From a virus, in the IMG/VR virus record IMGVR_UViG_3300044796_000014, positions 1 to 34,939 of that record: a DNA stretch of 34,939 bases. The stretch is one strand, 5' to 3'. Made by a program: the position numbers and the translations under genes. Below the pieces are notes generated by a model, which saw nothing but the letters and a program-made list of their open reading frames with translations, was not told the origin of the DNA and did no database searches. Shown one piece after another: positions 4,803-22,955 of this stretch; the first letter of the stretch is position 1, and each line of letters opens with the position of its first letter.

Positions 4803-5228
4803 ATGACTTTAGATATTTTTCAGAAACCTTGGGTGGGGAGTGAGCAAAACTTTGATGGGCATACAGATGAAGATAGGGAATACCTAAGAATGAAAGAAAG
4901 ATATGAAAGGGCAAGGTGGGAGCATAAAAATTTGTACATACAACCTAAAAAACAACAAAGTTCAACCAACCACTTTAGTATCGGGCATATTTTAGATTAT
5001 GAAGTACATAAACTTTCAATAGAAACAATGAATGATTTATGGAAGGCTAGGTTTACTGAACCGTTTAGGGTGGCTACGGGAAGTTCGTCTGTGGATACAC
5101 TAGGGCATTTTATGTTCTCTATAGGAGTTGTGCTGTATCGCATCGGAATTATTAGAGCAGAGTACAATCCAAGCACTGATGAATGGGTATACGTACAGGG
5201 GAGTATTAATGGGAGAATTAATAAGTAA
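4803..5228 (+). CDS. Hypothetical phage protein (141 aa), possible paralogue of the preceding broken ORF
   Basis: Starts at ATG 4803 after an AAGGAG ribosome-binding site. The N-terminal half is highly charged and probably helical (DREYLRMKERYERARWEHKN). The C-terminal half contains NDLWKARFTEPFRVA and an aromatic strand-rich end with YNPSTDEWVYV. The spacing of DLW(K/R)A, the hydrophobic middle and the final YN..(V/W) segment parallels the end of the preceding interrupted ORF, so the two may derive from an old duplication, though identity is low. Its TAA stop overlaps the helicase ATG by one base (TAATG, 5226-5230), implying coupling with the helicase. No family is recognised. Confidence 0.75.
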   Translation: MTLDIFQKPWVGSEQNFDGHTDEDREYLRMKERYERARWEHKNLYIQPKKQQSSTNHFSIGHILDYEVHKLSIETMNDLWKARFTEPFRVATGSSSVDTLGHFMFSIGVVLYRIGIIRAEYNPSTDEWVYVQGSINGRINK

Positions 5229-6796
5229 TGGAAATTTTTGCAAACAAAGTTCTTGTATTAAAGACTAAAGACCCCCAGAAATTCAGCATCATACCTAAGA
5301 GTAAAGACCTTGGTATGGATAGTTCTGGCATGCATGAAATTGCTGTGCACTGGGGATTAGATGAAGCACGTGTGCTAAAAAATATGGGGTTCTTAAATAC
5401 ACCCTCGCCAATACAGAAAGAATATGATTGGCCGGGCAAGTACAAACCCATGCAGCACCAAATAGACACTGCGTCTTTTCTAACAATGAATCGCAAAGCT
5501 TTTGTGTTGAGTGAAGCTGGTACTGGTAAAACAGTTGCTGCACTATGGGCCGCTGATTATCTTATGGGTAAAGGTGAAGTTCGCCGTATTCTTGTTATCT
5601 GTCCATTGTCTATCATGCGTTCTGCGTGGATGGGGGATATTACGAAGAGTATAATTCATAGAAGTGCAGTAGTTGCGTATCACACAGATGGGAGTAAGCG
5701 TGTGGAACTGGTGAGAAAAAACTACGAAATAGTAATCACAAACTACGATGGCTTGAACATAATTAAAGACGAGATAATCCGCGATGGTACATTTGATTTA
5801 ATAATTGCAGATGAAGCATCGCACTACCAAAACACGGCTACTACTCGGTGGAAGAACCTGAATTTAATAATGAAAGCGCATCCACAGACTATGTTGTGGA
5901 TGATGACAGGTACACCTGCTGCGCAGTCGCCAGAGCAGGCATACGGACTTGCCAAACTTATAAACCCTACAGCAATTCCTAAGTTTGTTTCTGCATGGCG
6001 GGATATGGTTATGAATAAAATATCCATGTACAAGTGGGTGCCTAAGCCCGGTGCTAATCAGCGAGTGTTTGATGCACTGCAACCTGCTATACGCCACACT
6101 AAAGCAGAGTGCCTGGACTTACCGCCTGTGCTTACGGTAACGCGTGACATCGAAATGACGCCACAACAAAAGAAATATTACAGGTTATTAAAAGATAATA
6201 TGCTGGTGAATGCATCTGGTGAAACTATCACAGCTGTAAATGCTGCTGCAGGTGTTAATAAGTTACTGCAGATAAGTAGCGGTGGTGCTTATACAGACAC
6301 ACATGAAACGCTGCAGTTTGATTGTAAGCCGCGCCTTAACGTACTAATGGAAGTGATTGAAGAAACGAGCCGTAAGATTTTAATATTTGTTCCATATCGG
6401 CATAGCATAGCTTTCATTGAAGAGTTTTTAACTAAAGAAAAAATAAACTGTGCACTAATACACGGAGATGTTTCTGTAACTAAGCGTACTGATATATTTA
6501 AGCGGTTCCAAGAAGACGCAGATTTAAAAGTGCTGATTATTCAGCCACAGGCGGCATCGCATGGTGTTACTTTAACAGCTGCAGACACAGTTGTTTTTTG
6601 GGGCCCTGTTATGAGCTTGGAGACGTATATTCAATGTATAGCCCGCGCTGATAGATTTGGGCAAGATAGCGACAAAGTTACAGTAGTACACTTGCAGAGC
6701 AGTGACATTGAGCGCCGGATGTTCAGGCGTTTAGCAGATAGAGAAGTATTACATGAGGGCCTTGTGAAACTATATGAAGAAGAACTTCATGATTAG
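5228..6796 (+). CDS. SF2 DNA helicase, SNF2/DEAD-like
   Basis: A 522-aa two-domain superfamily 2 helicase/translocase. Domain 1 has the Q-like QHQIDTASFL, motif I EAGTGKT (K101, T102), motif II DEAS (D195, E196) with a following His, and motif III MMTGTPA (about 226-231). Domain 2 has motif IV-like LIFVPY (about 385-390), HGDV (412-415) and motif VI QCIARADRFGQ (469-479) with the arginine finger. The architecture is that of SNF2-type phage helicases, which translocate on duplex DNA, remodel forks or displace proteins. There is no accessory DNA-binding domain. It sits in one operon with PolA and the nuclease, so replication or recombination is the likely setting. Start fixed by TAATG coupling with the upstream gene. 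Confidence 0.93.
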   Translation: MEIFANKVLVLKTKDPQKFSIIPKSKDLGMDSSGMHEIAVHWGLDEARVLKNMGFLNTPSPIQKEYDWPGKYKPMQHQIDTASFLTMNRKAFVLSEAGTGKTVAALWAADYLMGKGEVRRILVICPLSIMRSAWMGDITKSIIHRSAVVAYHTDGSKRVELVRKNYEIVITNYDGLNIIKDEIIRDGTFDLIIADEASHYQNTATTRWKNLNLIMKAHPQTMLWMMTGTPAAQSPEQAYGLAKLINPTAIPKFVSAWRDMVMNKISMYKWVPKPGANQRVFDALQPAIRHTKAECLDLPPVLTVTRDIEMTPQQKKYYRLLKDNMLVNASGETITAVNAAAGVNKLLQISSGGAYTDTHETLQFDCKPRLNVLMEVIEETSRKILIFVPYRHSIAFIEEFLTKEKINCALIHGDVSVTKRTDIFKRFQEDADLKVLIIQPQAASHGVTLTAADTVVFWGPVMSLETYIQCIARADRFGQDSDKVTVVHLQSSDIERRMFRRLADREVLHEGLVKLYEEELHD

Positions 6797-6859: not shown

Positions 6860-7255
6860 ATGGACTCGGTTAAAATAGATGCGCTGGTACAGGCATACAG
6901 AAATATACGTGCAGCAAAAGAAGAATTGACCAAAGGTTTTGAAGCAGAACTAGGAAATCTTGAATCAGAACAAGATGTTGTTTCAAGTGCACTAAAAGGG
7001 TATATGCTTGAAGCCGGTTTGAAATCCCTAAAAACGGAACAGGGCACGGTATCTTTGCTGCAAAAGACGCGGTACTTCACTAATGATTGGGAAGAGTTTG
7101 ATAAGTTTGTATTAGAGCATAAGGCTACTTCGCTATTTGAACGCCGTATTGCTCAGACCAATCTAAAGACGTTTCTGGAAGACAACCCCGGAGTAATCCC
7201 ACCCGGACTGAATTCAGAATCCAAGTATGAAATATCTGTACGTAAACCTACTTAA
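6860..7255 (+). CDS. Coiled-coil early protein, possibly Gam-like (host nuclease inhibitor type)
   Basis: A 131-aa protein. Residues about 5-55 form a long amphipathic helix (YRNIRAAKEELTKGFEAELG and on), followed by a strand-rich segment KSLKTEQGTVSLLQKTRYF, a helix with DWEEFDKFVLEHKA, and a C-terminal PPGLN...YEISVRKPT strand. A long helical hairpin followed by a small beta region and a 'W..F..FV' helix is reminiscent of Mu Gam-like DNA-end-binding proteins and similar phage proteins next to exonucleases. I cannot confirm membership from the sequence alone. An AAGGA ribosome-binding site precedes the ATG. Codons 57-66 (7030-7058) are nearly identical to the start of the next gene. Confidence 0.75.
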   Translation: MDSVKIDALVQAYRNIRAAKEELTKGFEAELGNLESEQDVVSSALKGYMLEAGLKSLKTEQGTVSLLQKTRYFTNDWEEFDKFVLEHKATSLFERRIAQTNLKTFLEDNPGVIPPGLNSESKYEISVRKPT

Positions 7256-7264
7256 GGAAAGAAC

Positions 7265-7729
7265 ATGAGTGATTTAGAAAAAACGGAACAGGGCCCGGTA
7301 TCTTTGCAAGAACAACTAAACATTTTAGAAAAAGAAAATGCTAACTTACTAAAAGTAGTTGAATCACAGCGGCAGGAAAAAGATTTTATTGTTAACGACA
7401 CTGAGCGCTATTCCCGTGAAACAGCGCTAGATCAAGCTATTAAAGTTAATCTAGGCAACACCACACATAGTGCACCATCCGATTTTTTAAAAGGAACTAA
7501 GCAAGAACAACTAAACATTTTAGAAAAAGAAAATGCTAACTTACTAAAAGTAGTTGAATCACAGCGGCAGGAAAAAGATTTTATTGTTAACGACACTGAG
7601 CGCTATTCCCGTGAAACAGCGCTAGATCAAGCTATTAAAGTTAATCTAGGCAACACCACACATAGTGCACCATCCGTAGTAGTAGAAGATGCGCAAGTAT
7701 TCTACGATTTTTTAAAAGGAACTAAATAA
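7265..7729 (+). CDS. Coiled-coil protein with an exact internal tandem duplication
   Basis: A 154-aa protein of unknown function built of two nearly identical 65-codon units. Each has a leucine-heptad coiled coil (EQLNILEKENANLLKVVES), a charged segment (RQEKDFIVNDTERYSRE) and HSAPS...DFLKGTK. The first unit lacks ten residues (VVVEDAQVFY) before DFLKGTK. The N-terminal residues KTEQGPVSLQ copy a segment of the preceding gene. The original single-copy protein would be about 89 aa. An AAGGAAAG ribosome-binding site precedes ATG 7265, and the stop overlaps the next ATG (TAATG). Because both units stay in frame, the longer protein is probably made. It may be a scaffold or multimerisation protein working with the downstream candidate ssDNA-binding protein; this is inference. 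Confidence 0.8.
   Translation: MSDLEKTEQGPVSLQEQLNILEKENANLLKVVESQRQEKDFIVNDTERYSRETALDQAIKVNLGNTTHSAPSDFLKGTKQEQLNILEKENANLLKVVESQRQEKDFIVNDTERYSRETALDQAIKVNLGNTTHSAPSVVVEDAQVFYDFLKGTK
7306..7676 (+). repeat. Exact 176-bp direct repeat (7306-7481 and 7501-7676)
   Basis: Bases 7306-7481 and 7501-7676 read as identical, offset by 195 bp (65 codons). A further 19-20 bases (7482-7500, attttttaaaaggaactaa) recur after copy 2 at about 7706-7724, separated there by an extra 30 bases encoding VVVEDAQVFY. Absence of any substitution across 176 bp indicates a recent duplication, or an assembly artefact. Confidence 0.95.
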
Positions 7730-8724
7730 TGAACACTAATGTAATTCAATTTAACCCCAAAGCCAATGTACCAGACTTTGTTAAGAATAGAACTGCACCA
7801 TCTGAACTAGCCATTGCGCTAGGGGGTGGTGCTGGAAGTTTTGGGAAGCGTATTTCGATTAAGGGTGGTGTGTTTCGCTTAATCTCTAGCGGTAAAGAAG
7901 TGGCTGCTATTGATGAACGCTACTTGGATGTGGTGATTGTAGCCGCAGCACCGAAGATCAGCCGTGTATTTTATGAAGGTAAGTTTGATGAAGAGCACGT
8001 TGCTCCTCCAGTATGCTGGTCACAAGATGGCGATAAGCCTGATGCCTCATCCACAGCCGCACAAAGCAACGACTGCGCGAGCTGCCCTAAGAATATTGTA
8101 GGCTCTGGCACCGGGGATACCAAAGCATGCCGCTATCAAAAGCGCATGGCAGTAGTGCTTGCCAACGATATTGGTGGGGACGTACTTCAAATTGTGGCTC
8201 CTGCTAAATCAATCTTTGGTAAGGAAGATGGCGATAACCGCCCACTGCAAGCATATGCTTTATGGTTGGCTTCACACAATGTCGACCCTAATCAAGTCAT
8301 CACACGCATGCGCTTTGATACGAAAGAAGCAAGCCCTAAGTTATTCTTCAAGGCCATGGACTATGTTTCTGATGAAGAGTATGCGCAAGTGCTTAAGGCT
8401 GGGGCAAGTGCTGATGCTATAGCTGCTGTGGCTATGACTGTTGCTCAACGTGATGGTGTGAAAGAAACGGCCACTACCGACGCTGAGTTTTCATCGCCTA
8501 AACCTAAAGCGCCAGAAGTTAAAGAAGTAGCACCTGCTAAAGAAGAGCCTAAAGCAGAAGCAGCTGAACCACCTGTTAAGCCACGCCGTGGTCGCCCTGC
8601 TAAAGAAACTGCAGAAGAAGGCCCGATTGAAGAACCTGTAGTACGCAGAGCAGCGGCTGAGGCACCTATAGTACCTTCTAAAGAAGACGCCCTGAAAGAC
8701 GTTGTAGGTAAATGGAATAGGTAA
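7729..8724 (+). CDS. Candidate ssDNA-binding protein with Cys4 cluster and AT-hook tail
   Basis: A 331-aa protein. Residues about 40-80 are strand-rich (KRISIKGGVFRLIS...LDVVIVAAAPKISRVFY), suggestive of an OB-like or similar beta core. They are followed by a cysteine motif PPVCWSQDG (C96), CASCPKN (C116, C119) and ACR (C134), likely a zinc site, and a strand KRMAVVLAND. This arrangement is shared by abundant phage proteins in replication modules that are thought to bind single-stranded DNA. The C-terminal 80 residues are a Pro/Ala/Glu-rich disordered linker containing an AT-hook-like KPRRGRPAK (about 284-292). ATG 7729 overlaps the upstream TAA. It is the last gene before a terminator. The ssDNA-binding role is inferred from architecture and context. 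Confidence 0.75.
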   Translation: MNTNVIQFNPKANVPDFVKNRTAPSELAIALGGGAGSFGKRISIKGGVFRLISSGKEVAAIDERYLDVVIVAAAPKISRVFYEGKFDEEHVAPPVCWSQDGDKPDASSTAAQSNDCASCPKNIVGSGTGDTKACRYQKRMAVVLANDIGGDVLQIVAPAKSIFGKEDGDNRPLQAYALWLASHNVDPNQVITRMRFDTKEASPKLFFKAMDYVSDEEYAQVLKAGASADAIAAVAMTVAQRDGVKETATTDAEFSSPKPKAPEVKEVAPAKEEPKAEAAEPPVKPRRGRPAKETAEEGPIEEPVVRRAAAEAPIVPSKEDALKDVVGKWNR

Positions 8725-12324: not shown

Positions 12325-12481
12325 GGTGGAGAAGGGATGCGGTTTTTTCATACCGGCCGTAGACCCTATCACCATGAGAGAGCCTGTGCTTAAAAGCGCC
12401 GTACGCGCTAGAGTATGGGGGGTTGTTTTATATGGTGTTAAAAATGGGTGTATGGGGCTGCTATTTATTCGCACCAAGTGA
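12290..12481 (+). CDS. Small hypothetical phage protein (63 aa) at the convergent junction
   Basis: A short protein whose shape is common among phage early mini-proteins: an aromatic/acidic N-terminus IPWDKVEKGCGFFIP, a helix with LKSAVRARVWG, and a strand-rich end. That 'W-D-K-V-x-x-G-x-x-F-F-I-P' opening supports real coding despite a weak ribosome-binding site. It overlaps the preceding gene by 35 bases in another frame, so coupling is likely. Its 3' end overlaps the 3' end of the convergent giant gene by 21 bases (12461-12481). Function unknown. Confidence 0.6.
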   Translation: MNASHLNIPWDKVEKGCGFFIPAVDPITMREPVLKSAVRARVWGVVLYGVKNGCMGLLFIRTK

Positions 12482-15400
12482 GCTTATTGACTGCACAATT
12501 CCTGCTTTCTGTCTGTTGTAATTGTCTATCAGCACGCGTTTCTTTTCAGGCGTAATATTAGGATTGTCGGTAATCAAGCGCTCTACTTTATTCATCTCAC
12601 CGGCTGCTTTACTCACGGCTGCAGCTCCCGCGCCTTCGCCCAGCCATTCTGGGTACGCTTTCAACAGCGCATCGCCTTTAGCTGTTTGCCCTGATTCATA
12701 GTAGTGCGTTAGCGTATTCTTCATTGTGGATGCTTGCGCCGTACCGTCTAGGAAATCCCCTATTATGCCATTGCCAGACACATCTTGCCGTAGACCACCT
12801 AAGAACGGTACTTGATGTGGCAGCATAGTAGGCCGTGGTACGCCCATACCCACATGGTTAAATAGGGATACAAACGCGCTCCCCATGCCCCCAAGGTATT
12901 CTTTAGCGATGTAGTCTAGTTGTACAGGAGATAGCCCTTCTGTAAAGCCTAAGTGCTGTTTAATCCACGGATTGCCCGTGTACTGCCCCGCTGCTTTGGC
13001 AAGCTCGCTTGTATCTGGCAAAGAACGTGCAGGCTTTAATAAGTGCTGCAAGCGTGTGTTTTCTATTTCTTGCGAGCTCAAGGCGTTGGTGTGATTAAAC
13101 CCTAAGCTTACTAATGGTGCTATGGCTTCTGGTAAGCCGCCTGGCATGCTCTCTAATACTAAGTCACCTAGAGCCCTAGTCGCTGTCCCTACTTTGGTAT
13201 CTCCATGCATAATCGCTACCATGGCTTCTGGTATTGATTTAACCAATATGCCAGGTTCAAATGGCAGCGGTAGTTTGTACGGCTCTACGCCAGGAGTTTC
13301 GCTCAGTAATAACCAGTTCTTTAGTCTGTCTTCTTCTGAAATAATTTTATAGTTTGGGTTGTTGCGCACAGCCAAGGCGTACCCCACACTGGCTGCAGAT
13401 ATGAAAGCAGCACGCCGAAACAACTTGCCCTGTACATTCAGACGCTTATTAAAGGGCATCTGACCTCTAGCTGATCTGTAGAACACATCCAGACCTTGCA
13501 TTAAAGCATTCATAAAAGGTATTGTCTGTATGTATGAGTTCATGAACCCACTACCACCGCGCCGGGAGAAGTTCATGGATTCCAGCGATGCGTAAAAAGA
13601 CTCAACTGGAGACAAACCTTGTTTTATAAAATCGTTATACAGCGTTGCACGCGTGCCCATATCAGCACGCACCACATTCTTTTCAAAGAAACCTAGTGTT
13701 TTACCCATCACAGAGAAAGCCCCTCTGTCGCCCATTGAATACCGCATTACTGCAGCAGCATCAGGATCGCCGTAGTGCAGTGCGCCACCACCGCCTACAC
13801 CAGCTTTGCGTAGAAGTGAAGATGTAGGGTCTTTACCACCTATGTCCTTAAACACGTGCTTGAGAGCGCCTATGAAAGGTATCGCGTTAGATCCTGTAGT
13901 CAGCCATGAGAACGGTGAGTGCCTAAACAAAACACGAGGGGCGAACAGCGGGTTCATTTCTGTTAAGAACCGTGTAGCTTTCGCAGGGGCTCGCATCATC
14001 TTTATAAACATGGAGTTCATTTGGGGTGTGCCTTCCAACCCCTTAATCAGCATCTCTACAGGTATGTCGCTAAAATCTGAGTGTGCTGTAGAATTAAGCC
14101 TCATGGCCTCTGGCACCCCATTAACTCTAAAATGGAGAACATCTCTGCCAGCAGCACCTGCGCCTACTTTTTCCCCAATACCTAAATCACGCATGCTCTG
14201 CGCCGTCTGGGATGTTGCCAGGTTGTGCAGCATTGACGTAACCAACATGTGCGTATTGCGCATAGCATCTTCAGCAAAGCCGCCAATAGGGCGATTACCC
14301 CCAACTAACTCTTGGAGCCACGGCTGATTCTTTAAGTCCCCTATGGTTCGCACACCTTCGCCTTCAACAAACAGTTCTAGGTTGCCATCTTTCATGCGGT
14401 AGTATGGTACGTAATCTTTACGGCTAAGCCAATTATCAGCTTCTTCAGGTGTTAGCACACCTGCATCGCGTAAACCGTTTACTAGATTTTTATTGTACTT
14501 ATCATAGAGATCTCTGGCTTCTTGCATATGGGGGTTAGCATCCCACTTCGCCACAAACTCTGCGCGCCTAGCAGGGTCTACATCAGCACCTAACTTACCT
14601 TTCCACTCAGGGTTAGCATCTTCACGTTTGAAGGCCATATACGTCTTCATCAGGCCATCTAGCTGCATGGATGTGTAGCCCTTTATTTTTTTCAATGCTT
14701 TACCAATATCAGGTAGCCCAACATGCCCAGCGCCTTTTTCTATAGTAGGCCAGTACTGACCATACCCGCGCCCAGAATCAAACAGCTTGTTAAGCAGCTG
14801 ACCACCATGGGACATTACCTCAGTAACGAAGGCCATTGAGTTGTGGAAAGTGCGGGTACTAGCCAGCATCTGGAACGCTGCTTGGTATCTTTTATCCTGT
14901 GGATTATCCCCCACACGCTCTAGTATTTTTGCTTGCGCAGCAGCTTTATCCAGTGTTTTATAGCGTAGCCCTAGCCCAGCACGAAACATGGTAAGACCAA
15001 ACGCAGGCCTTTCACCATCTTTACCTGTAACTGCATTAACTAAATCAGAGTCTGCGTGCTTCTTAGAAAACAAAGGTTCTGCAGTACGCCCTTCATCATG
15101 CACACCCGCACCCATCTCCACCTTGGCAGCACCATGCGCCATGTCAACCAAGTCTTGCAAAGACATTTCTTTCTTAGGCAGTTCACCAAACCACTTTTCA
15201 AATGCTTTAGCAGCCCACTGCTTGATGCGCTGCAACATAGACCCTAGAGGCCCATCTGTAGGCTTAATGCCTGCTTTAACAGCTTCTTCGATCGTGTAGG
15301 CTATGGCTTCATCGTGTGCTTGATTGCCGGCTGTGCCTGCATCTTTAACTCGCTCCATAGCAGCTTTAGCTACAGTGCTTTCAACAGACCCATCATCTTT

Positions 15401-18400
15401 CTTTGCCCAATCCAGAATCTTGTTGGCAATCCCTTTGTACGCTTCTGGTGGCAGCATATTCTTCATGCCTATGTGTGCGCCTACCTCATGCAGGAACACA
15501 CCCTGTGCTTCGCCTTTACCAATATTTTCCCCAAACAAATGCGCTTGACCTTTGTGCACCATACCCTTGGTAGTGTCATCAATCTTGCCTTCATATTCAG
15601 GATGCGATTTTATGAAGTCAGCAACGGTTTCATGCACTAGCACTTTGTGCCCTTCAGCACCCACAGCCCCATAGCCTTTCAATTCATCTACGACACCTTG
15701 GCGGCCAATACCTTCTTCAGACTTAGCACCTTTAGATTCTAAAGGCAGTCCTGTTTCAACATTAAAATCGTGGTCTATATCGTACCCTGCAGCTTCAAGC
15801 ATTCCTTCGTGGTCAGGGTTAACATCCCGTAAAGGACGATCTTCTAAAGCTTTTTTAATATCAAACACGCCCCGTAGATTAGTACGTGCAGTTCTTTCAG
15901 GGTTATTACCACGCCGTTTAAGTACGCCTTTTGTATCAAGTATTTCTTTGTATTCAGCTAGTTCTCTTTTTTCTTCTACAGATAGGTTAGCGCCTTTTTT
16001 CTCCAATTCATTAACACGGTCAATAATTTGAGCTTCCGAAAGTCTAGTAGCTTCTTTACCTAAAGCGTCAAGTTTAGCTTGAGCCCCATCAGCCTCTTCC
16101 CGCAGAATAGAAGCAATAGCATCATTCCCTTTTTTCTCTGCAATATCAGCCTTCTCATTAAGTGTTTTAATCTTAGTCTTTAATTTAGCATCCTCTGTTT
16201 CTGCAGCTTTAATTATTGTAGTAGCTGCAGTTAAGCGCTTAGTAAGTCTTTTCACAGCATCTTCATGGCGTTTTATTTCAGCGCTAACAGCTTGATGTTC
16301 GGCAGTTCCTTCCTTACTCCCTTCTTTAACCAATCTTTCTCTGGCTTCTTTTACTGCACCTTGAGCTTCTTTTATTTGGGCAGGTAGTTGGTTGGCAGCA
16401 TCTTTAGCCACAGACACTCTTGATGCTTTTTTAATACCGGCCATTTGTGTAGCAGCTTCAGTGCTTTCCGCACGCATTTCTGCTGCAGTTTTTTCTTGGG
16501 CTCCTATAGGGTATTTAGTAGCCTGCATAACTTCTCGGCGTGTTCTGTCTTTAAATAACTCTAGTTGTTTTTTAAGGCTTTCTTTTTGTGAATCTGCGAT
16601 GTCTGGATTTGCAATAGCTTTGTTAAGCCGTGAAATTTCTGCTTTTTCTTCAGCAGTACGTGCATGTAGAACAGTACGCTCCGTAGTAGTTTCTCGCACA
16701 TTGCCCTGTGCATCTTTTGTGCGCTTAGTTTCTGTGCGAGTAAAAGGTTCGTTTTTATGTACAAACGCATTTACTACAGCGCCTTGGCCTTCTAAATGGG
16801 AAGGTAGCCCTGCGGCGCTAAACTGCTCCAGATTATGCTGCTCTTGCTTGCGCATTTCATCCCGGGTACTTGTATCAAGCCTTTCGTGAGCCTGCGAAGG
16901 CTCTGTATACGCAGCGTGCGCAGCTGCTATTTCTTCTCCTATCGGTGCCCAAGGAGTTCCTTTTTGTGCTGCTACTTCTTCTTGCGTGCGTGGGGCAGTA
17001 GCATTATCATTCTTATGTAGCTCATAGTGCAGCGCATCCAAGGTAGGCGCAGTTACTTTATTGTCACGTATACTCAGCGCAGTATTAATGCGCCCTATTT
17101 CTGGCTTAGACCTAGCTTCAATCGCATCCAGAGCATCTTTTACTTTGGCACTATAAGCTGCGGCTTCCGTTTTGGTTAAGGGTTCATTGCCATTACGCAG
17201 GCGTGTGTAGGTTGATTCACGCAGAGCGGCATCACGGTAGGCTTCTTTACTTTTCTCTACAGTATCAGCAAGACTACGGCGCTGGGCTCTCCTAGCTAAA
17301 ACATCTTCTTTAATTCCGGTCTTTTCTTCTGCTGTAAGTACAGACCCCTTATCCCCACGCGCTTTTGCAAAAGCTTCTTGCAGCGCTGTTCTAGTTGTTG
17401 GACCTTTTTTCGTGTACAGCTGTGGCGCAGCTGTATCTGGTGAACCATGCAGGCCATACAGACCAGTGTAAAGGTTATTCAACGCTGTGCGCTTGTCTGC
17501 AACTGCCTGCGCAATACGGGGCTCAATCTGCTGCTCTTGCGCGCCAGGTATAATATCGCGCCCCGTGTCCCGCACAGTTAAATTATTAAGGTACTTAACT
17601 TCATCACTTATCTTACCCAGCGCCATATCACGTACTGCAGCACCTTTACCAGTGAAGCCAGTCACATCTATGCCAAGGTTCTTAGCCACTTTACGCATTT
17701 CAGGCAAGCCTACGGCATTTTTAACAGTATCTTTTACTTCAGAATCTCCCGATGCTAGATCTGCACCGCGTACGAGCAAGTCTCTAGCAGCTACAGCAGC
17801 ATCACTATCAGGGTCAACATGCGTTTTAGCAGAGCCTTCAGGGGTAACTACATCTGAGGGTGTGTTTAAGTTAGCGGCATCCAGTGGAGCACGCGGTACT
17901 ACTGCAGGCGTTTGCTCTGTTCCCTGTTCCTGACCAATGGTTGTGGAGGGTGCGCTAGTTTCAGTAGTATCAGCATTACTAGTTTGCGCTTGACTATCAG
18001 CGTTTGCCGCAGTCTGTTTAGCTTTAAGGGCTTCAATAATGTCATTTGGTGTCGTCCCCTTAGTGACTTTAATGCCGTTATTCTTGGTGATCTTTCTTAA
18101 GTTGTTAGTCATCATCGCTGGTACACCGCCATCTTCTACCGACTGCAGTAGAGATTCTGCTTCTGGCGTAATAATACCTGTGATGTTTGGTGGATTAGTA
18201 ACTTTCTGGTTAAGTTCGTCTTTAAGAGTTTGCGCTTCAGTAGTTATAGGTGGCACTACATCTGCGCCAGGTTCAGCGTGCGCTTCTTTCAGTTTTTGTT
18301 GTAGCGCAGCAAGTTGCGTAGATAGGCTGGCTATACCCGCAGTATCTTCTTTTTTAATGGCTGCTTTAATTTTCGTGTTAAGTGCTGCTATCTGCGCAGT

Positions 18401-19726
18401 AAGAACGTCCTGGTTACTCTGCACTACACCACTTGCTGGTTTGGGTATATCTACAGTAGTGCCTTCTGGAGTGCCTGTCAGGGTACGGTATGTTTGCTCA
18501 GCCTTCGCTTTCGCAGCAGTATGCTCTTGTATGGCAGTTGTGGCTGCAGCTTGCCTAGCTTGAAAATCTTCAGGCGTTTCCCCTTCTTGCATCGGGGTAG
18601 TAAGTCCTTGGGCAGCATCCAGTATGTTAGCGTGCGCTTGGTGATAGTCTGCAGATGCGCCAGCTAAATCAGTTTGGTAGTTAGGTGCTGATTCACGTAA
18701 TTTTTTAGCATCAGCTACTTTGGCTGCATCAGCTTTATCTGCAGCAGTGTTTATATAATCTTCTTGCTTACCACGCTGGCCAATCGTGCTGAGGCCACCA
18801 AATATAAGAGCCGGTGCAATGCCCGTAGCTAGACCGTTAGTGTATTGGCTAAGCGCTTCAGGACTTGTAGTATCTTGCCCAGCCTGCCAGCGCTGCAGAG
18901 CTTCAGACCCCGCACCCATGGTTTCAAGGCCGACATAATTACTAGCGGCGTTCTTCATGTAGTTCTTGTAGGTGGTAGAGAGTTGACCCAACGCAGCCTC
19001 TCTAGATAAATCACCCTTGGCTATATCAGCGCTCATAGCTGCAATATCTTTTCCCAGCATGCCCTGCATGAGCTTTGGAAACACACCGAATGTAGGAATG
19101 CCAAAACCCAATAATGCTGATTGGCCTAAGTCAGCAGCAACAGCTTTTAACTTATCTGGAGGAACATCTGGATTTACATGCTGTTGGTAGTCCAGGTTTT
19201 CGCTTAACCCTGCAGGCATATTAGCGGCTGCCGTACCAAAAGCTCTAACTGCTGCACGTGTTCCTAGAGCACCTAGCGCTGCAATGCCTTCTTCAGGTGC
19301 GGCTAACGCTGCCAAAGCTCCTACTGCCAACTGGGGGCCTACTCCACCAACCAAACTACCAATAGGTTCAGTGCCATACTTACGAAAGCCAGCACCTAAG
19401 CCACTACCAAGACCAGTATTAAATCCTGCAGCCACATCTTCATCTGAAGTTGGGATATAATCTTTACCAGCTTCTGCACTGGTTTTTGTGCCGAGGTCTT
19501 CTAGGGGTTTGTAGCCAAGCCAAGATCCTGCTGTTTTTTCAGTACCACCTAAAACCCCACTTGCTGCAGCACCCATGGCAGGAAAAAACCCTTGCTTACT
19601 TGATTTTTCATCGGGGGTAAGCATTTCATTGGGGAATTGCTGTTGTGCGAGTGCAGCCGCTTGCGCGGCATCCATGCCTGCCGGTATTTCAAGATACTGC
19701 CCGCTAGGGAGTTGCAGATAGGCCAT
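12461..19726 (-). CDS. Giant polyvalent internal virion/ejection protein (2421 aa) with HExxxH motif
   Basis: The largest gene, 2421 codons. It opens with LQLPSGQYLEIPAGMDAAQAA, an N-terminal 'LP.G..lEiP.gm...qA' peptide seen on phage virion proteins. Residues about 50-330 are Gly/Ala-rich and hydrophobic, with stretches such as APALIFGGLSTIG that could insert in membrane. About 330-1330 is Ala/Lys/Glu-rich and probably a very long coiled coil. A putative metallopeptidase follows, with HEVGAHIGM (H1413, E1414, H1418). The C-terminal 850 residues (from about GLTMFRAGLGLRYKT) resemble the large polyvalent protein-associated regions of phage virions. Polyvalent proteins are packaged and injected with the DNA. 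Being next to the transglycosylase supports an ejection role. AAGGG precedes ATG 19726. Confidence 0.85.
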   Translation of the reverse strand: MAYLQLPSGQYLEIPAGMDAAQAAALAQQQFPNEMLTPDEKSSKQGFFPAMGAAASGVLGGTEKTAGSWLGYKPLEDLGTKTSAEAGKDYIPTSDEDVAAGFNTGLGSGLGAGFRKYGTEPIGSLVGGVGPQLAVGALAALAAPEEGIAALGALGTRAAVRAFGTAAANMPAGLSENLDYQQHVNPDVPPDKLKAVAADLGQSALLGFGIPTFGVFPKLMQGMLGKDIAAMSADIAKGDLSREAALGQLSTTYKNYMKNAASNYVGLETMGAGSEALQRWQAGQDTTSPEALSQYTNGLATGIAPALIFGGLSTIGQRGKQEDYINTAADKADAAKVADAKKLRESAPNYQTDLAGASADYHQAHANILDAAQGLTTPMQEGETPEDFQARQAAATTAIQEHTAAKAKAEQTYRTLTGTPEGTTVDIPKPASGVVQSNQDVLTAQIAALNTKIKAAIKKEDTAGIASLSTQLAALQQKLKEAHAEPGADVVPPITTEAQTLKDELNQKVTNPPNITGIITPEAESLLQSVEDGGVPAMMTNNLRKITKNNGIKVTKGTTPNDIIEALKAKQTAANADSQAQTSNADTTETSAPSTTIGQEQGTEQTPAVVPRAPLDAANLNTPSDVVTPEGSAKTHVDPDSDAAVAARDLLVRGADLASGDSEVKDTVKNAVGLPEMRKVAKNLGIDVTGFTGKGAAVRDMALGKISDEVKYLNNLTVRDTGRDIIPGAQEQQIEPRIAQAVADKRTALNNLYTGLYGLHGSPDTAAPQLYTKKGPTTRTALQEAFAKARGDKGSVLTAEEKTGIKEDVLARRAQRRSLADTVEKSKEAYRDAALRESTYTRLRNGNEPLTKTEAAAYSAKVKDALDAIEARSKPEIGRINTALSIRDNKVTAPTLDALHYELHKNDNATAPRTQEEVAAQKGTPWAPIGEEIAAAHAAYTEPSQAHERLDTSTRDEMRKQEQHNLEQFSAAGLPSHLEGQGAVVNAFVHKNEPFTRTETKRTKDAQGNVRETTTERTVLHARTAEEKAEISRLNKAIANPDIADSQKESLKKQLELFKDRTRREVMQATKYPIGAQEKTAAEMRAESTEAATQMAGIKKASRVSVAKDAANQLPAQIKEAQGAVKEARERLVKEGSKEGTAEHQAVSAEIKRHEDAVKRLTKRLTAATTIIKAAETEDAKLKTKIKTLNEKADIAEKKGNDAIASILREEADGAQAKLDALGKEATRLSEAQIIDRVNELEKKGANLSVEEKRELAEYKEILDTKGVLKRRGNNPERTARTNLRGVFDIKKALEDRPLRDVNPDHEGMLEAAGYDIDHDFNVETGLPLESKGAKSEEGIGRQGVVDELKGYGAVGAEGHKVLVHETVADFIKSHPEYEGKIDDTTKGMVHKGQAHLFGENIGKGEAQGVFLHEVGAHIGMKNMLPPEAYKGIANKILDWAKKDDGSVESTVAKAAMERVKDAGTAGNQAHDEAIAYTIEEAVKAGIKPTDGPLGSMLQRIKQWAAKAFEKWFGELPKKEMSLQDLVDMAHGAAKVEMGAGVHDEGRTAEPLFSKKHADSDLVNAVTGKDGERPAFGLTMFRAGLGLRYKTLDKAAAQAKILERVGDNPQDKRYQAAFQMLASTRTFHNSMAFVTEVMSHGGQLLNKLFDSGRGYGQYWPTIEKGAGHVGLPDIGKALKKIKGYTSMQLDGLMKTYMAFKREDANPEWKGKLGADVDPARRAEFVAKWDANPHMQEARDLYDKYNKNLVNGLRDAGVLTPEEADNWLSRKDYVPYYRMKDGNLELFVEGEGVRTIGDLKNQPWLQELVGGNRPIGGFAEDAMRNTHMLVTSMLHNLATSQTAQSMRDLGIGEKVGAGAAGRDVLHFRVNGVPEAMRLNSTAHSDFSDIPVEMLIKGLEGTPQMNSMFIKMMRAPAKATRFLTEMNPLFAPRVLFRHSPFSWLTTGSNAIPFIGALKHVFKDIGGKDPTSSLLRKAGVGGGGALHYGDPDAAAVMRYSMGDRGAFSVMGKTLGFFEKNVVRADMGTRATLYNDFIKQGLSPVESFYASLESMNFSRRGGSGFMNSYIQTIPFMNALMQGLDVFYRSARGQMPFNKRLNVQGKLFRRAAFISAASVGYALAVRNNPNYKIISEEDRLKNWLLLSETPGVEPYKLPLPFEPGILVKSIPEAMVAIMHGDTKVGTATRALGDLVLESMPGGLPEAIAPLVSLGFNHTNALSSQEIENTRLQHLLKPARSLPDTSELAKAAGQYTGNPWIKQHLGFTEGLSPVQLDYIAKEYLGGMGSAFVSLFNHVGMGVPRPTMLPHQVPFLGGLRQDVSGNGIIGDFLDGTAQASTMKNTLTHYYESGQTAKGDALLKAYPEWLGEGAGAAAVSKAAGEMNKVERLITDNPNITPEKKRVLIDNYNRQKAGIVQSISSLGANK

Positions 19727-21602: not shown

Positions 21603-22955
21603 CTAACTTCTCCTCGCCATGGCTTTCTGTAGCCCAAGTTTAGCCAGCCCTTCGCCCATATTCTTTTTACCTACTGAAGTACGTTTAACTTTACCACCCT
21701 TCTTACCGAACGCCTGTGTAATACCATAAGCGCCTAAACCTGCGCTAGCTACCTGACTCGCAGCAGTTGCCGGTGCTTGGTATACTTGAGAAGTTGCGCC
21801 ACCAGTAGGCACCCCAGATACTATATTAGACATGAAGCCAAGCTGATTATATGGTGCATTAAGTTGGTTCTGGTATGTGGAATAATCTGTAGATGCTATG
21901 TTCTGGTTAAGTGCCTGTTGCTGCGTGCCGGCTGTAAGTTGTGCCTGTGTAATACCGGCATTCTGCGTGTACTGATCCTGCCCTAAAGTGCCCAGCGTGT
22001 TAGCGCCGGACAAGGCTGTATTCTGCCCTTGAATACCTGTAGCAGCGCCTTGTAAGGCTGTGTTAACGCCCGCTAGACCTGTATTAGCTCCAGCGATGCC
22101 TGCTTGAGCACCAGCAATACCAGTGTTAGCACCGGCAATACCCGCTTGAGCCCCTGTAATACCTTGAGCAGTACCCTGCATGCCAAGACCAGCAGCCGTA
22201 TTCATCTGGTTCTGGGCGTTACTAAAGGCTGTGTTATATCCTGAAGATACCAGTTGGTTCATTGCAAGATCTTGATTCTGTTGATTTAATCCAGACATCA
22301 AAGCTTCACGACTACCACCAAAAGCGCCCGCACCCGTAGCTTGCCCTTGCTCCTGTTGCCCTTGAATACCATACTGTTGATTGAGCAACTGCTCTTGGGG
22401 GGCTAAAGACTGCTGCAAATATGGATTCATGTAGGAACCAACAGACCCAGGGCCTGTAGAAGAGTTTTGCGACTGTGCAGCCACACTCTGCCCTATATTT
22501 TGTCCGGTAAGCCCCGATTGCTGCCCTTGTGCTCCATACCCAGCGCCTTGGACACCCATATTCACACCCATACCGCCAGCCTGCGCACCTTGGGCACCAT
22601 AACCTAGGCCTCCTACTGTGCCTATTTGGGCTGCTGCATTACCCATATTGGAAGCGGTAGTAGAGGCGTTATTAGCTATGTTAGAGCCTTGGTTAATCTG
22701 CCCAGCCTGCTGCATATTTGCGATGTTACCGTAGGCTTGATTTTGAAGCGCTGTAGAGCCTGCTACCTGGCCATTAGCATAGGTCTGTGAGTTCTGCCCA
22801 GAAGCCCCTACATTAGAAGGGCCATTATATGGGTTTGGAGTCGTGCCAGTAAGTGCTGATGCCTTACCCAGCATTGACTGGACATAGGGAGTCCCATACT
22901 GTGAAATTAGGGTTTGACTGTTCGTTTGTGCTTGGGGTTGTGAGGGGCCGCTCAT
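21603..22955 (-). CDS. Gln/Gly-rich putative virion/ejection protein with heptapeptide repeats
   Basis: A 450-aa low-complexity protein very rich in Gln, Gly, Ala and Asn. Residues 265-320 are eight consecutive heptapeptides of the form G-I-A-G-A-x-x (GIAGANT, GIAGAQA and variants), flanked by further Gly/Gln-rich sequence (about 110-160). An ordered segment at 175-255 (YMNPYLQQSLAPQEQLLNQQ and on, then FGGSREALMSG) is typical of podovirus-type internal or DNA-transfer proteins. The end is basic (KKGGKVKRTSVGKKN). Its ATG overlaps the GNAT stop by 4 bases (ATGA, 22952-22955). Location between the transglycosylase and other virion genes suggests an ejection or tail component. A catalytic function is not apparent. 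Confidence 0.75.
   Translation of the reverse strand: MSGPSQPQAQTNSQTLISQYGTPYVQSMLGKASALTGTTPNPYNGPSNVGASGQNSQTYANGQVAGSTALQNQAYGNIANMQQAGQINQGSNIANNASTTASNMGNAAAQIGTVGGLGYGAQGAQAGGMGVNMGVQGAGYGAQGQQSGLTGQNIGQSVAAQSQNSSTGPGSVGSYMNPYLQQSLAPQEQLLNQQYGIQGQQEQGQATGAGAFGGSREALMSGLNQQNQDLAMNQLVSSGYNTAFSNAQNQMNTAAGLGMQGTAQGITGAQAGIAGANTGIAGAQAGIAGANTGLAGVNTALQGAATGIQGQNTALSGANTLGTLGQDQYTQNAGITQAQLTAGTQQQALNQNIASTDYSTYQNQLNAPYNQLGFMSNIVSGVPTGGATSQVYQAPATAASQVASAGLGAYGITQAFGKKGGKVKRTSVGKKNMGEGLAKLGLQKAMARRS
21996..22163 (-). repeat. Eight-copy heptapeptide (21-bp) coding repeat
   Basis: Eight successive 21-bp coding units (residues 265-320 of the Gln/Gly-rich protein) read GITGAQA, GIAGANT, GIAGAQA, GIAGANT, GLAGVNT, ALQGAAT, GIQGQNT, ALSGANT. 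The units diverge at DNA level, so this is an old selected repeat rather than a fresh slippage tract. Confidence 0.85.

Follow-up and report, generated by a model that had tools for sequence, protein, structure and literature searches.

A small gene in the replication cluster of a viral genome has probably been lengthened by a real and recent tandem duplication, which would have arisen by illegitimate recombination at a slot where genes are gained and lost and would have been followed by a 30-bp deletion. The DNA analyzed (the window) is the whole 34,939-nucleotide stretch of IMG/VR record IMGVR_UViG_3300044796_000014. A direct-repeat comparison within it found two 176-nt copies (7306-7481 and 7501-7676) that are 100% identical at a spacing of 195 bp, and Tandem Repeats Finder returned the same array (7306-7676, period 195, 1.9 copies, 100% matches, 0 indels). 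When the window was shuffled 100 times by mononucleotide, exact direct repeats reached at most 17 bp, compared with the 176 bp observed. The copies are adjacent and head to tail, and a single plus-strand ORF (7265-7729, 154 aa) stays open across both copies and their joint, confirming the exact 176-bp in-frame tandem duplication at a 195-bp offset that had been described in an earlier note and supporting its proposal that a protein was lengthened in this way. That the event was very recent, as also suggested there, is supported by the absence of substitutions across the 176 bp. The repeat and the gene that contains it comprise the following features.

7256-7264, plus strand: ribosome-binding region, AAGGAAAGAAC ahead of the ATG (sequence).
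7265-7729, plus strand: the lengthened gene, 154 aa (ORF list, phrog match, slot-family profile).
7306-7500, plus strand: copy 1 of a 225-bp unit, without 30 bp, domain truncated (repeat search, profile).
7501-7725, plus strand: copy 2, the complete 225-bp unit, domain intact (repeat search, profile).
7677-7706, plus strand: 30 bp found only in copy 2 (VVVEDAQVFY, second conserved helix; sequence, repeats, profile).
7707-7729, plus strand: gene end (DFLKGTK), which probably also provides the next gene with its ribosome-binding site (AAAAGGAAC).

A 21-bp tail follows each 176-bp copy (7480-7500 and 7705-7725), and the true repeat unit is therefore 225 bp (7501-7725), longer than 176 bp. Copy 1 (7306-7500) equals this unit minus 30 bp, which are present at 7677-7706; the tail shared with copy 2 bears out the earlier statement that copy 1 lacks the ten residues VVVEDAQVFY. 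These 30 bp are flanked by CG dinucleotides, which leave a 2-bp CG ambiguity at the ends, and by arms CGTAG and CTACG, surroundings that would provide a setting for a small deletion. At the duplication joint (ACTAA directly followed by GCAAG) exact microhomology is absent and imperfect similarity lies nearby (GAACAACTAA / GAACACTAA), so that plain slippage is not obvious. In this respect the joint is unlike phage T4 dmd-tifA, for which segmental amplification at microhomologies of 6-10 bp is described (PMC9391042). The T4 case resembles the window in that recombination placed copies of a small accessory gene in tandem, but there whole genes are amplified and the protein is not lengthened. Elsewhere in the window, short 21/42-bp imperfect tandem repeats occur at 22077-22163 within a 450-aa ORF on the minus strand (21603-22955).

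The lengthened gene lies in a slot between two other genes of the cluster.

6860-7255, plus strand: 131-aa gene upstream of the slot (phrog_13900, E 2e-22).
7729-8724, plus strand: 331-aa Cys-rich gene downstream of the slot (phrog_27714, function unknown).

The 131-aa gene is weakly similar to DUF7307 / Pam3 gp33-like proteins (PF23984, E 6.8e-5, which is under the cut-off of that family). A search of IMG/VR with the 331-aa gene identified four close relatives (L003-L006), each of which lacks the entire small ORF and has the 131-aa gene directly next to the 331-aa gene. A wider survey, based on an alignment search with the 331-aa protein and on 80 loci kept of 462 confirmed, found the slot empty (a gap of at most 60 bp between the flanking genes) in 74 of the 80 loci and wider in six: three with a small ORF (L020, L021, L022), one with an HNH-type ORF matching Pfam HNH_3 (L066, 5412-5978), one with a 118-aa ORF (L081, 5634-5990) and one with a 130-bp gap (L063). 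A homologue of the small gene was present in only three of the 80. Since other small ORFs occur at the slot or its edge (those of L066 and L081, and a 64-aa ORF at 3183-3377 in L117, between the small gene and the 331-aa-like gene), the slot may serve this group of phages as a general site for insertions.

Presence and absence of the small gene were mapped on a tree of 62 distinct 331-aa-like proteins (left from 88 after removal of identical and short rows). The gene is present in 10 rows, which requires at least seven changes, four of them forced by well-supported branches, and its presence is somewhat clustered (4 of 500 shuffles gave a value as low). The window groups with L004 and L006, both without the gene, with support 100/100. 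This distribution is patchy, and the tree does not separate gain from loss. Because the four closest relatives lack the gene and its occurrence is patchy, we regard it as accessory, or optional, within the replication cluster. Its description as a phage replisome gene in the earlier note is consequently not supported, and the 154-aa protein matched no replication-protein family above cut-off in phrog, Pfam or NCBIfam, all Pfam and NCBIfam matches being under their cut-offs. Its product may, tentatively, be an accessory protein of the replication operon.

The best explanation of the window ORF, as part of a reading that we consider probable as a whole, is that it belongs to a small optional family of phage proteins encoded between two conserved genes of the replication cluster. 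Similarity to the C-terminal portion of the window's repeat unit is seen in the slot ORFs of L020 (72 aa; phmmer E 0.015), L021 (73 aa; E 0.011) and L022 (64 aa; identified by position), and each ORF independently matches phrog_26515, a 55-position profile of unknown function, at E 2e-4 to 8e-3. The window protein matches most of this profile significantly (E 3.3e-12) in two stretches, the better of which aligns residues 109-152 with profile positions 3-43, and its inferred single-copy form matches the profile at E 6.6e-7. Alignment and single-sequence searches of IMG/VR extended the set to 12 loci on 12 contigs (L109-L120), including the contigs of L020-L022; L110 and L111 encode an identical protein. 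All 12 homologues are single-copy ORFs of 64-90 aa, none being doubled, which provides the single-copy version in related phages that had been asked for earlier. Both neighbors are visible in 11 of the 12 loci (the contig of L120 ends just after the gene), and wherever both flanks are visible the homologue sits in the slot.

In control searches, phrog_26515 gave matches in six of 14 unrelated genomes and phrog_993 in four of 14, so that weak matches to either mean little alone. The homology claim is instead based on synteny and on a slot-family profile, built from 11 homologues with the duplicate L111 omitted and the window excluded. Against this profile copy 2 scores 30.5 bits and copy 1 10.5 bits; among 2000 shuffled versions of copy 2 the highest score was 9.4. 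The position of the window gene and its overlap with the 331-aa gene (TAATG) also agree with the family. The homologues resemble the window gene in their slot, their C-terminal domain and the likely ribosome-binding site of the next gene, but they have one copy, are shorter, and have an acidic N-terminal part that lacks the helical arm of the window protein. The low identity of the window domain to its relatives (18-37% in alignments over about 46 residues) and the missing counterpart of the helical arm, for which the searches made also found no homologue, count against close kinship.

The homologues surfaced only through the search with the neighboring gene and then through the family alignment. 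With the 154-aa protein, tblastn found nothing in annotated phages and the search of IMG/VR gave 18 stretches matching a pattern, none of which was confirmed; a DNA search gave short matches only, a 38-aa C-terminal query only E values of 4 or more, and the L120 homologue as query nothing in annotated phages. A degenerate pattern for VESQRQEKDF had no match in IMG/VR, a 34-base pattern none in bacterial genomes, and the family alignment matched 39 stretches in bacterial genomes with no confirmed relative. A gene in the equivalent region of the wider phage group, represented by Pseudomonas phage Rollin, Rhizobium phage RHph_TM27A and Xanthomonas phage Xp15, was considered as a member of the family and rejected; phrog_26515 and phrog_993 matched none of seven genomes at E 1 (these three and the four IMG/VR records behind L003-L006). 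In the window, no Rfam match reaches the gathering score and tRNAs are absent.

The profile also qualifies the earlier view that the protein was doubled. The unit is indeed repeated, but copy 1 matches only positions 3-29 of phrog_26515 and aligns to the first half of the slot-family domain, its missing VVVEDAQVFY being the second conserved helix; the domain in copy 1 is therefore truncated, and one complete domain is left. An AlphaFold2 model made with the 154-aa protein and 10 homologues places helices at residues 14-64, 79-129 and 136-151 (mean pLDDT 74.7, pTM 0.34). These helices are plausible, although the model does not fix their packing, and the product would have the form long helix, long helix, short helix, with one intact C-terminal domain. 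The coiled coil of the earlier note is supported only in part: long helices are predicted, but heptad regularity is weak (best a/d hydrophobic share 0.43) and the helical arm is without a counterpart in relatives; a coiled coil is possible.

An AAGGAAA site of its own precedes the ATG of the window ORF, whose stop overlaps the start of the next gene (TAATG) and which ends in AAAAGGAACTAAATAATG. In the homologues the C-terminal FLKGE codons likewise form AAAGGAG-like sites ahead of the next start, and stop and start overlap or nearly do so. The last codons of the small gene thus likely serve as the ribosome-binding site of the next gene, and an ORF translated to its end would stay coupled to that gene. 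The frame is preserved at three joints, namely the 195-bp offset, the 30-bp deletion and a 29-bp copy described below, which by simple arithmetic would occur by luck in about 1 in 27 cases; coupling to the next gene would offer a reason for the persistence of three in-frame joints.

The preserved frame and the sequence of the joint also bear on whether the array could be an assembly artefact, in which strains with different single-copy versions were joined by the assembler into a false tandem. The source is a metagenome contig, the copies are identical, and copy 1 differs only by the 30-bp deletion, as a strain variant might. Assembler k-mers are commonly shorter than 176 bp, and the exact repeat exceeds those in common use. 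However, the joint at 7500/7501, where a unit end runs into a unit start, must come from some source molecule and is not produced simply by mixing single-copy strains; frame retention at all three joints further argues against random misassembly. We therefore consider an artefact unlikely and infer that the array did not arise during assembly. A mis-set copy number (two where there are at least three) would be a more plausible fault than a false tandem. No second contig with a doubled gene was found in IMG/VR, near-identical records possibly lying outside the scope of that search.

A further rearrangement, absent from the earlier note, lies at the start of the gene, next to a tract of recent exchange.

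6995-7261, strand not assigned: recent recombination tract shared with L003-L005 (mismatch counts).
7030-7058, plus strand: donor stretch in the 131-aa gene (KTEQGTVSL; repeat search, identity counts).
7279-7307, plus strand: 29-bp copy of 7030-7058, in frame (KTEQGPVSL), making the N-terminus of the ORF (repeat search).

The two 29-bp stretches are identical at 28 of 29 positions and in the same codon phase, compared with a best 29-mer match of 24 in 100 shuffles in which a 14-mer seed was required. The inserted piece is closest to the window's own 131-aa gene (28/29, against 27/29 for L003 and 23/29 for L006), and at position 7038, where L003-L006 differ, both the window and the insert have GAA; the 29-bp copy was therefore made within this lineage. 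It is missing from copy 2 and from the single-copy homologues, and its last 2 bp (GC), ending at 7307, are also the first two of copy 1, which begins at 7306.

Mismatches between the window and L003 amount to 7/267 in the tract (6995-7261), 17/135 upstream (6860-6994) and 34/171 downstream (7729-7899), or 2.6% divergence within the tract and 13-20% on either side. The difference is significant both upstream (Fisher p 1.7e-4, with the left boundary at 6995 picked after seeing the data) and downstream (p 2e-9). On a plain reading, a recent exchange with an L003-like phage involved the DNA immediately upstream of the slot and seems to end at the slot. As the 29-bp copy shares the window-specific GAA, it would postdate the exchange. 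Copy 1 and copy 2 show 0/176 differences, which by the rule of three gives a 95% upper bound on divergence of about 1.7%, placing the duplication at a similar time to the exchange or later. Among the same relatives, L003 (4980-7550), L004 (9-2435) and L005 (3146-5716) encode an SNF2-type helicase that is interrupted at the Walker A motif, between SEAG and TGKT, by some 330 additional residues. This block starts with Cys, ends with Asn and is absent from the helicase of the window (5228-6796) and from L006; it is intein-like in appearance but matched no Pfam intein family at E 1e-3. A fifth of the window is taken up by the gene for a 2421-aa protein (12461-19726, minus strand) that carries the large polyvalent protein domain LPD38.

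Identical copies could also result from an older duplication held uniform through gene conversion or through cycles in which the tandem array expands and contracts, since tandem repeats recombine readily. In the in-frame tandem duplication within a tail-fibre gene of Enterococcus phage EfV12-phi1, the reads of one isolate simultaneously contained between 0 and 4 extra copies (PMC6365445). The two cases are alike in that an in-frame tandem duplication lies inside a phage gene, the copy number in EfV12-phi1 being variable; EfV12-phi1 differs in its 1.8-kb unit, the tail-fibre gene affected, laboratory selection and confirmation by PCR and long reads (PMC6365445). In the window, however, the 30-bp difference has still not been homogenised, and the 29-bp copy that abuts copy 1 likewise matches its source almost exactly, pointing to recent events all round and making an older origin very unlikely.

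For the recent duplication that we favor, the order of events and the molecular mechanism would be the following. In the lineage of the window, a 225-bp segment comprising the helical arm and the C-terminal two-helix domain would have been duplicated head to tail, through illegitimate recombination or template switching, after which the first copy would have lost 30 bp between two CG dinucleotides. The N-terminus would have been rebuilt with 29 bp from the adjoining upstream gene, and a frame-preserving joint would keep translation running into the 331-aa gene. As a refinement, a single complex template-switching event may, tentatively, have produced both the 29-bp copy and the duplication: the two breakpoints fall at one place, with the 2-bp overlap at 7306-7307, and copy 2 is free of the 29 bp. 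The same sequence would nevertheless arise from independent events, both at a single fragile point, or from a duplication beginning inside an already chimeric gene, and no relative found carries an intermediate. It is rather less likely that one replication-linked template switch at the slot both took up a piece of the neighbor and duplicated the resident gene, leaving each joint in frame, with selection for coupling filtering the rearrangements.

If the contig were in error, the finding would matter only as a warning on repeats in metagenome contigs; provided that the assembly is right, this is a fairly ordinary example of phage protein growth. Its remodelling can be followed across related genomes, where the slot is seen empty, filled with a single-copy gene or filled with the lengthened version, and with the 29-bp source and its product still nearly identical, the order of the steps and the role of translational coupling are open to testing. 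Should selection for coupling act as outlined above, it would turn random rearrangements at the slot into longer, chimeric and translated proteins.
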